A DNA stretch of 64,000 bases from Fimbriimonadaceae bacterium (GTDB taxonomy: Bacteria > Armatimonadota > Fimbriimonadia > Fimbriimonadales > Fimbriimonadaceae): the NCBI GenBank assembly GCA_019638775.1, contig JAHBTD010000001.1, positions 310,001 to 374,000 of the forward strand. The letters run 5' to 3'. Positions 47,819 to 52,096 of the stretch are shown one piece after another. The position numbers and the translations under genes are program-made. Positions within the stretch are counted from its first letter, which is position 1. Each line of letters starts with the position of its first letter. The notes beneath the pieces were generated by a model, which ran no database searches, was not told the DNA's origin, and saw only the letters and a program-made list of their open reading frames with translations.

Positions 47819-47836
47819 AGCGAGAGGACTCCGAAT

Positions 47837-47934
47837 GCCGGGAATAATGCATCGCGCACCAAGCCGATTTACCGTTGCTCCCTTCCGGGCCTGGCGGGGT
47901 TCACCGTCTGCATGCCGCGCAGTTCCCGGCGAAC
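47837..47934 (-). ncRNA. ffs: Small signal recognition particle RNA (4.5S type)
   Basis: The minus strand holds the universal SRP helix 8 core: GGTGAACCCCGCCAGG, then CCCGGAAGGGAGCA, then CGGTAAATCGGC. The ends pair as GCCGGGAA (5') with TTCCCGGC (3'), giving a hairpin of about 94-98 bases without the Alu domain. TACAAT (47946-47941) is a good -10 box. No T-run terminator follows, so transcripts may run into dnaX and be processed. Confidence 0.93.
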
Positions 47935-49449: not shown

Positions 49450-50238
49450 TTAAACCTCTCTTCGATCAAAGATCAGAATCGCCCCGACCAGCAAAATTCC
49501 GATATAGAGGAGACCGTATCCGGTCACCGCGATGAAGTAGTGCTGTTCGTTTTGAATGACTTGGCCTGGGTTGATGATCGGGTTTTGAACGTTGTAATTC
49601 GCAAAGTTTGGAATTGCGACGTTCAACGTTTTAAACAACATCAGCAGAACCGGGGGCAGTTCCTTGTTCTCGGTCATCGTCTGCATGAACGGGTTGAAGA
49701 CCGATCCAACCAAGAACAAGCCGCCAGTAAGGAAGAAGTTCACAATCGGCGATACGAAAGTCGAGAAGAAGACGCCCACTGCGGCCAAGAGGCACATCTG
49801 GACATAGAACATCATGATGCCCTTGACCAATGCCAGCGACTCGGAAGTGATTCCACTCTGACGATAGATGAACAGGATAACAACGACCACTGCCATCAGG
49901 GCCATCATCAGGCCAAGCGCGAGAATTGCGCCCATGAACTTCCCAACGAGGAATTGCCAGCGTTGGACGGGCTTAGACAGAATCGTATAGATCGTTCGGC
50001 GTTCCACCTCGTTCGGGATCATGTAAACCGTAAGCACAATCGCGATGACGGCGCCGGTGATCTGTACCATACCGAGCATGAACGACTTGAGAACGGTCAT
50101 CTCTTGCCGCGCCGAGAGGACGGTCAACGCAGGAGCGATCATGGTGAGGAACACACCGATAAACAGAATAATAAGCAGCACTCGACGTCGGATCGCTTCA
50201 CCGATCGTCGTTGCGGCTAAAGACCAGATAACTCTCAC
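49450..50238 (-). CDS. ABC-2 type transporter permease
   Basis: A 262-residue permease with six predicted transmembrane helices. VIWSLAATTIGEAIRRRVLLI and VERRTIYTILSKPVQRWQFLVGKFMG, where the elbow helix meets the Q-loop, are typical of NosY/YhaP-like ABC-2 permeases. It overlaps the ATPase gene by 4 bases (ATGA). The substrate is not apparent. Confidence 0.88.
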   Translation of the reverse strand: MRVIWSLAATTIGEAIRRRVLLIILFIGVFLTMIAPALTVLSARQEMTVLKSFMLGMVQITGAVIAIVLTVYMIPNEVERRTIYTILSKPVQRWQFLVGKFMGAILALGLMMALMAVVVVILFIYRQSGITSESLALVKGIMMFYVQMCLLAAVGVFFSTFVSPIVNFFLTGGLFLVGSVFNPFMQTMTENKELPPVLLMLFKTLNVAIPNFANYNVQNPIINPGQVIQNEQHYFIAVTGYGLLYIGILLVGAILIFDRREV

Positions 50239-51167
50239 TTCTTCCCTCCAGGGCCAGGGGCTGCGCTGCTTACCGTTTCTACGAAGAGGTCTTCGAGGTA
50301 TTTGCGGCGTCGGACTACCTGCACGATTTTGCCCTTCTGGGTTCTTATGCTGTCGATGACGGCGTTGTGATCGTGAGTGTCGTTCAATTCGATGAGGACC
50401 CCGTCCGATTCAAACGGAAGAACTTTTGCTCCGTTTAATCCGAGGCCACCAACCCAATCGACGCTTACGCCTTCGGCGGTGATCTCAACGAGTTCGCCTC
50501 GAAGAAGGTCTGAGAGTTTGCCTTGGCGCTCAATGCGTCCGTGGTTAATGATGGCAACACGGTCGCAGATGCGCTCAACTTCGCTCATTTCGTGTGACGA
50601 GACAAAGACAGTGCGGCCCTCTCCCTTGAATTGGAGAATGAGGTCACGAATCTCTTTGTGCGCGATAGGGTCGAGACCACCGGTGGGCTCATCCAAGAAG
50701 AGGAGCTTGGGGTCGTTGAGCAGGCTTTGCGCCAAACCGACGCGTTGCTGCATACCCTTCGAGTACTGCGAGATGGTTTTGGTCATATCCTTATGCAGGT
50801 TGACCTTTTCTAAGAGACGCTTACAAAGATCGATATCATGGATTCCGAACAGTGAGGCATAGAATCTCAGCAGCTCAAGGCCCGTCATATATTCGTAATA
50901 ATACGGGCGCTCGGGCAGGTAGCTGATCAGTTTGTGGACATCTATGTCTCCGATCTCTTTTCCAAGAACGAAGGCCTCTCCTGTCGTGGGATAAATGATG
51001 CCGAGCAGCATCTTGATCGTAGTCGTTTTACCCGCACCGTTCGGGCCAAGGAATCCAAAGATTTCTCCTTCCTCGACCTCCAAGTTGAGATTGTCGACGA
51101 CGTTGATCTTTCCGGCTCGGGTTCGATAAGATTTTGTAAGGTTGATCGTTTCGATGGCAGCGGCCAA
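50235..51167 (-). CDS. ABC-2 type exporter ATP-binding protein
   Basis: A 310-residue ATPase. Walker A GPNGAGKTTTIKML, signature YSKGMQQRVGLAQSLLN, Walker B LLFLDEPTGGLDPIAH and switch SSHEMSEVERICDR are intact, followed by a C-terminal domain of about 80 residues typical of the CcmA/NatA exporters. It is the first gene of an operon with the ABC-2 permease and a TPR protein. Its start is 197 bases from the divergent ncRNA. Confidence 0.92.
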   Translation of the reverse strand: MAAAIETINLTKSYRTRAGKINVVDNLNLEVEEGEIFGFLGPNGAGKTTTIKMLLGIIYPTTGEAFVLGKEIGDIDVHKLISYLPERPYYYEYMTGLELLRFYASLFGIHDIDLCKRLLEKVNLHKDMTKTISQYSKGMQQRVGLAQSLLNDPKLLFLDEPTGGLDPIAHKEIRDLILQFKGEGRTVFVSSHEMSEVERICDRVAIINHGRIERQGKLSDLLRGELVEITAEGVSVDWVGGLGLNGAKVLPFESDGVLIELNDTHDHNAVIDSIRTQKGKIVQVVRRRKYLEDLFVETVSSAAPGPGGKK

Positions 51168-51328: not shown

Positions 51329-51357
51329 GTGACATTCGCTTCAATCGTGTATATAAT
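51329..51357 (+). promoter_or_regulatory. Promoter of the plus-strand ncRNA
   Basis: GTGACA (51329-51334), 17 bases, then a consensus TATAAT (51352-51357). No open frame of note follows; a structured RNA and a strong terminator do. Confidence 0.6.
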
Positions 51358-51361
51358 CATT

Positions 51362-51485
51362 CAAGCGCCAAGAGACCCAAACTTCCGGTTTGGACTCGAA
51401 AGGGTCCTCGCGAGAGAGGTTAGGCCTTGGAGGAAAGCTTGCGAGAAGGTTCTTTGCTCTCCTTTCAGCCTTCTCGCATTTTTTT
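51362..51485 (+). ncRNA. Unassigned structured small RNA, about 124 nt
   Basis: A transcript of about 124 nt from the promoter at 51329-51357 to the terminator at 51440-51485. Visible pairings are CAAGC (51362) with GCTTG (51437) and CCAAG (51368) with CTTGG (51426) as closing helices. Inside, GACCC (51374) pairs with GGGTC (51402), AAAC-TTCCG-GTTT forms a hairpin, and CCTC/GAGG a second arm. It is not SRP, tmRNA, 6S or RNase P RNA by length and motif. It converges on trpF and could be an independent sRNA or act on the trp mRNA end. Confidence 0.6.
51440..51485 (+). terminator. Strong rho-independent terminator of the ncRNA
   Basis: TGCGAGAAGG / CCTTCTCGCA, a perfect 10-bp stem with a 19-base loop, is followed on the plus strand by seven T. 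The minus strand has no T-run, so it does not serve trpF. Confidence 0.85.
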
Positions 51486-51508: not shown

Positions 51509-52096
51509 TTAGGCCCCTTTTGCGGCTTTTATAAACGCACGCAACTTTTCTCGATCTTTTATGCCGGGCGAAGATTCCACCCCTGAGCTCACATCGACAA
51601 AGTGAGGACGGACGGCGTTGATAGCCTCCGCTACGTTTTCGGGGGAAAGTCCACCCGCCAGCCCAACTGGGATGCTGCTCTGGGTCACTATCCTCGCGGC
51701 TAGATCCCAATCCGCTCGGTGGCCCGTTCCTCCAAAAGCCCCTTGATGGTAAGCATCAATGAGGAGTTTCTGGGCGCCGGAGGCGCTTTCAAGAACTTCT
51801 TGAACTGTATTTTGAGGCTTGAGGCGTACGGCTTGCCAGCGAGATTGCGGGCTTGATAGCCACTCCACCGATTGCACGATGTCGAAGCCTTTTGGCAGAT
51901 GGGCGAGATTGCAGACCCCGAACACAGCAACCTTTTTGGCAGCAAGCTCACTTATCCAATCTGGGATTTGTGAGGGGTCACCAAAGCACCTCGGCGAGGA
52001 TGGCTCGAACACAAAGCCCAGGTAATCGGCTCCGCAGTCACGGGCAAATTCAGCATCTTCTCGTGTACGAAGCCCGCATATTTTGACCTCTACCAG
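51509..52096 (-). CDS. trpF: Phosphoribosylanthranilate isomerase, probable CTG start
   Basis: A 195-residue enzyme of tryptophan synthesis (PRA to CdRP). The first strand VKICGLRTREDAEFA and DYLGFVFEPSSPR are essential parts of the barrel, but they lie upstream of the first usual start codon (GTG 52012, in GFV-FEP). In frame, the only sensible initiator is CTG at 52096, which overlaps the trpC stop and has AGAGGTG 7 bases upstream. DAYHQGAFGGTG and LAGGLSPENV are the active-site and phosphate-binding motifs. It is the last gene of trpDCF. Confidence 0.9.
   Translation of the reverse strand: MVEVKICGLRTREDAEFARDCGADYLGFVFEPSSPRCFGDPSQIPDWISELAAKKVAVFGVCNLAHLPKGFDIVQSVEWLSSPQSRWQAVRLKPQNTVQEVLESASGAQKLLIDAYHQGAFGGTGHRADWDLAARIVTQSSIPVGLAGGLSPENVAEAINAVRPHFVDVSSGVESSPGIKDREKLRAFIKAAKGA

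Follow-up and report, generated by a model that had tools for sequence, protein, structure and literature searches.

A predicted small RNA family of Armatimonadota with an almost invariant terminator loop as proposed anti-Shine-Dalgarno seed

Conservation of base-pairing small RNAs (sRNAs) is usually limited to close relatives. The LhrC family of Listeria monocytogenes comprises multicopy Hfq-binding sRNAs whose C/U-rich single-stranded sites, including sites in loops, pair with ribosome-binding regions (PMC4132741). RepG of Helicobacter pylori pairs with tlpB, a chemoreceptor gene, through the C/U-rich loop of its intrinsic terminator (PMC8295292). In Campylobacter jejuni, the sRNAs CJnc230 (FlmE) and CJnc170 (FlmR) are controlled by the flagellar sigma factor, and CJnc230 contains a putative anti-Shine-Dalgarno motif (PMC11187230). 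A literature search found no published work on small RNAs in Armatimonadota. Here we describe an sRNA locus in a stretch of 64,000 nucleotides from a Fimbriimonadaceae bacterium, hereafter the window. By analogy, its RNA would work like LhrC and RepG, although we do not claim membership by sequence.

The gene lies on the forward strand. The promoter scan revealed a sigma70-type promoter, GTGACA-17-TATAAT, at 51329-51357, as noted in a preliminary description of this DNA. The -35 box (GTGACA, 51329-51334) and the -10 box (TATAAT, 51352-51357) are separated by a spacer of 17 nt and match the consensus at 11 of 12 positions. With a start near 51364, inferred from the -10 box, and an end at the T-run, the predicted small RNA (51364-51485) is structured and about 120 nt long. 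No long ORF was found on the forward strand at the locus, and it was already recognized that no coding sequence follows on this strand. The presence of its own promoter, the absence of an ORF, and a GC-rich stem followed by a T-run indicate a stand-alone sRNA gene with a predicted transcript.

Promoter-like sites are expected by chance at 1.6 per 3 kb in the promoter scan, the fold of the single sequence gave z = -1.2 to -1.8, and the single sequence by itself is not beyond chance. The locus stands above chance because it is conserved. A DNA search detected homologues in 25 of 61 relatives and a single copy in the own genome, and when 291 Armatimonadota genomes were searched with a covariance model of the hairpin, 101 of them, about a third, gave a match. 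Among the 33 homologues of the long form, the form found in the window, 24 had the -10 box at an unchanged distance, compared with a mean of 4.0 after shuffling. The terminator stem and the helices of the 5' domain are conserved as well, as described below. Rfam release 15 gave no match at the gathering threshold, either at the locus or in the long and short homologue loci, which agrees with the earlier view of a structured noncoding RNA outside known families; relaxed thresholds yielded solely microRNA-like chance matches below the cut-off at the locus. When the collection was scanned with a 16-mer, the loci passing the stem and T-run filter were, among the matches listed, almost all either labelled as Armatimonadota or recognizable as such. 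Judged by this conservation, the sRNA gene is real and its transcript is predicted.

The terminator stem in the window consists of 10 perfect base pairs between the 5' arm TGCGAGAAGG (51440-51449) and the 3' arm CCTTCTCGCA (51469-51478), and is followed by seven T (51479-51485) that may also provide an Hfq-binding tail; both stem and T-run had been described correctly. Double-sided changes were observed at 11/11 pairs of the stem, of which 96.8% remained paired (0/500 shuffles), and this covariation signal collapsed when one arm was slid. The 5' domain is composed of helix P1, formed by CCAAG (51368-51372) and CTTGG (51426-51430), helix P2, formed by AACTT (51380-51384) and AGGTT (51417-51421), and a variable tip. 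P1 was 84.9% paired in 21 homologues (0/1000 shuffles; 0/500 in an arm-swap test), and the inner helix P2 had 28 cells changed on both sides and was 80.6% paired (0/1000 shuffles), where the per-pair counts are from an alignment without hand editing and 0/1000 refers to the fraction paired. P1, P2, and the terminator stem do not overlap and are mutually compatible. Covariation among relatives, which the preliminary description had proposed as a check, was thus found for all three.

CCAAG/CTTGG was one of two nested helices in that description, and it pairs and covaries as P1. The outer one, between CAAGC (51362-51366) and GCTTG (51437-51441), is complementary and does have two bases (51440-51441) in common with the terminator arm, as had been pointed out, but it is not conserved in relatives. 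Since the -10 box sets the start near 51364, its CAAGC arm is located mostly or wholly outside the transcript. We therefore dropped the suggested switch between two folds, because the outer helix begins at or before the likely start, is absent from relatives, and is followed by no gene downstream on this strand. A riboswitch or attenuator was rejected on the same evidence.

It is very improbable that the hairpin is just a terminator or 3'-end element without an independent RNA, which ends upstream transcription or insulates trpF. The hairpin is a good intrinsic terminator close to a convergent gene, but there is no upstream gene on the forward strand, the -10 box is conserved at a fixed distance, and the 5' helices covary. 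Moreover, termination does not require an invariant loop. The apical loop of the hairpin (CTTTGCTCTCCTTTC, 51452-51466), whose 15 nt are predicted to be unpaired in the fold, is almost invariant across homologues as CUUUGCUCUCCUUUC, while the stem turns over with compensation. A freely varying stem with a constant loop is a typical pattern of a seed or binding site, and not of a plain terminator. It has CTCCTTTC in common with the 3' tail of 16S rRNA and matches the anti-Shine-Dalgarno tail over CUCCUUUC; the 16S tail GGAUCACCUCCUUUC is present in the own genome. This unpaired C/U-rich loop is complementary to the Shine-Dalgarno sequence, as expected for an anti-Shine-Dalgarno sRNA, and would serve as its pairing seed. 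An Hfq gene was detected in 20 of 21 genomes and the sRNA ends in T7, which is consistent with an Hfq-dependent sRNA with predicted binding of Hfq.

The gene anatomy, structure, loop invariance, spread, and multicopy siblings described here are direct observations, and the function that we propose is an interpretation of them. We consider it probable that the RNAs form a trans-acting sRNA family with an anti-Shine-Dalgarno seed in the terminator loop, which probably uses Hfq and may repress translation. The sigma70-type promoter would produce the RNA of about 120 nt, with the 5' domain preceding the terminator hairpin, and the apical loop would remain open. The loop could then pair with AAAGGAG-type ribosome-binding sites and their flanks, for which the ideal site is GAAAGGAGAGCAAAG. 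Hfq would probably bind to the U-tail, and the translation of several mRNAs would be blocked.

Pairing statistics were obtained from 208 genes called with a home-made ORF caller in a 400-kb sample of the own genome. The CUCUCCUUUCA half of the loop paired more strongly at ribosome-binding sites (-5.99 kcal/mol) than in coding sequence (-4.74 kcal/mol). For the whole loop, the pairing excess at ribosome-binding sites was small, within about one standard deviation of shuffled loops. The GCUUUG half is equally conserved and showed no preference for ribosome-binding sites. Because this half is conserved without favouring them, anti-Shine-Dalgarno pairing alone is insufficient to explain the full invariance of the loop, and there is therefore room for a protein-binding role.

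In the own genome, at least 10 perfect pairs are possible at 11 non-self sites, three of which are located at start codons: those of a methyl-accepting chemotaxis gene (12 nt paired), a pilP-like gene that belongs to a pilNOP operon (13 nt paired), and a small-protein gene (at least 10 perfect pairs). Conservation of these sites was not found in relatives, and the pilP-like site was not kept in orthologues; thus, the targets stay candidates. When the 14-mer AAAGGAGAGCAAAG was used as a target probe with one mismatch allowed, most of its matches fell in the sRNA genes or within ORFs, and it was rejected. A recurrent 12-mer site in family f2 was also rejected as a target, as it belongs to a separate conserved noncoding element and not to a common gene start. 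This element (L345, L347-L354) has the form GGATGGAGAGCAAAGCCTGCCCTCATAAGGAGGTTGCGACC...CTTATGAGGC with a hairpin CCTCATAAG/CTTATGAGG, gave no Rfam match, and is possibly a leader or riboswitch-like motif.

CsrB-type RNAs titrate the protein CsrA. By a comparable decoy or scaffold action, either a dedicated RNA-binding protein or a ribosome-associated one whose normal binding partner is the 16S 3' end would bind the invariant loop and be titrated, an explanation that we regard as unlikely. It would account for the invariance of all the approximately 15-16 loop bases, including GCUUUG, as well as for the similarity of the loop to the 16S 3' tail and the failure to find a conserved mRNA partner. 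However, the motif is not repeated within one RNA, no candidate protein was identified, and most short siblings have a second C/U-rich single-stranded stretch, as in base-pairing sRNAs.

These siblings occur in other families than that of the window, where the long form is a single copy at a fixed place. They are present at 2-6 copies per genome and combine the common terminator loop with different short 5' parts to give RNAs of about 65-75 nt. Many of them have a C/U-rich 5' tail, for example UUCACCUUCCUUCCUU, and one type carries GAUCCUCCUUUC (loop written GCUUUGAUCCUCCUUUCGA), which is closer still to the 16S tail. A third sibling type, found in family f2 (L183, L184, L188, L189, and L190), has a long 5' hairpin, TGGAAAGC...GCTTTCCA or TGGAATGCCC...GGGCGTTCCA, and the loop GCTTTGATCCTCCTTTCGA, and it recurs almost unchanged at several positions of a single genome.

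A strict sigma28-type promoter, TAAAG-N-GCCGATAA, was found at 7 of 23 short loci compared with 0.01 expected. Such sigma28 (FliA/WhiG)-like promoters are located upstream of the hairpin in L038, L053, L079, L123, L192, L193, and L198, and many other short loci have the near-variant GCCATAAT. A FliA/WhiG-type sigma factor was encoded, above the curated cut-off, in 14 of 14 genomes checked. Alongside these promoters of the siblings, the candidate sites at chemotaxis and pilus genes are suggestive. A broader reading, which we offer tentatively and with more doubt than belief, is that the family is ancient, extends through much of the phylum, and joins a fixed loop module mimicking the 16S 3' end to interchangeable 5' domains and promoters, the latter being sigma70-type in the long form and sigma28-like in some short siblings. 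The RNA would then compete with or mimic the anti-Shine-Dalgarno sequence of the ribosome, and would be a global regulator whose targets include motility and surface functions.

On one side of the long form in the window is a divergent ABC transporter ATPase gene (50235-51167, minus strand; Pfam ABC_tran, 2.5e-27), followed by an ABC permease gene (49450-50238; ABC2_membrane_2). On the other side, the RNA converges on trpF (51509-52012, minus strand, covering the C-terminal part of the listed ORF; PRAI, 2.5e-23), as previously stated, and the end of the terminator is 23 nt from the trpF stop codon. The divergent ABC-2 ATPase gene is present beside nearly all checkable long-form loci. The convergent trpF is present beside about two thirds of the long-form homologues and is missing beside about 11 of them and beside all short siblings. 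The ATPase gene has an apparent conserved TTG start after GGGAGGTGCGCAGC (AGGAGG in the window) at window position 51167 and in homologues, and a TATAAT-like box of its own upstream. The main short sibling (L056, L031, L043, L058, L063, and others) lies divergent from the gene of an ABC permease that is MacB/FtsX-like, a name given from sequence inspection, and is a second case of the RNA family adjoining an ABC export gene. The minus strand of the window also encodes a bacterial small SRP RNA, at 47833-47931 (RF00169, 59.7 bits).

The nearly complete ABC-2 transporter synteny of the long form, the frequent presence of trpF as the other neighbour, and the position of the main short sibling beside another ABC-type gene could reflect a local action, in cis or on neighbours, through which the RNA regulates either the ABC transporter operon that diverges from it or the trp operon that converges on it. 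We consider this improbable, since the sRNA and trpF do not overlap, several siblings are located elsewhere, and the ABC start region (GGGAGG...TTG) has no extended loop match in relatives, for which the ABC transporter leader was rejected as a target. Pairing with the trpCF mRNA, which had been raised earlier, is likewise disfavoured, because trpF does not adjoin the short siblings or about 11 of the long-form homologues, and because the conservation falls on a loop of a general anti-Shine-Dalgarno-like type.

These bacteria also have 6S RNA (RF00013), another structured RNA with a stand-alone gene. Rfam did not detect it in any of 25 searched genomes of the window's family (f1, including the window's own genome, G000) and detected it in three sister families, in some of their genomes. 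The lack of a 6S match in the window's family would fit a diverged 6S RNA missed by the Rfam model, but the sRNA is too short, has no 6S-like central bubble, and gives no match to RF00013. In addition, at least one relative (G038) has a 6S match and the sRNA together. This reading is thus largely refuted, and we give it almost no weight.

The proposed trans-acting sRNA family resembles LhrC in its multicopy siblings and C/U-rich single-stranded sites, with predicted pairing and Hfq binding in Armatimonadota. LhrC belongs to another phylum and has UCCC motifs and three redundant sites per RNA, whereas the Armatimonadota sRNA has one almost invariant terminator loop, sometimes a C/U-rich 5' tail, and targets that are candidates. 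It resembles RepG in the proposed terminator-loop seed and in that one predicted candidate target is a chemoreceptor. RepG, for its part, recognizes a G-repeat in a single leader, and no sequence relationship is claimed. To our knowledge, H. pylori has no Hfq. The control of CJnc230 and CJnc170 is comparable to the sigma28-like promoters found at short siblings, but the Campylobacter RNAs are unrelated in sequence, and the sRNA in the window has a sigma70-type promoter.

The sRNA family is thus undescribed, although its functional kind is apparently a known one; its conservation is unusually deep and its mechanism putative. A loop of about 15 nt has been kept across several families of the phylum despite full turnover of the stem, and in multicopy siblings too. 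Because of this deep conservation and the siblings, the family offers a good starting point for studying post-transcriptional regulation in a phylum that has few model systems, and it provides a test case for whether anti-Shine-Dalgarno loops can be conserved as modules.
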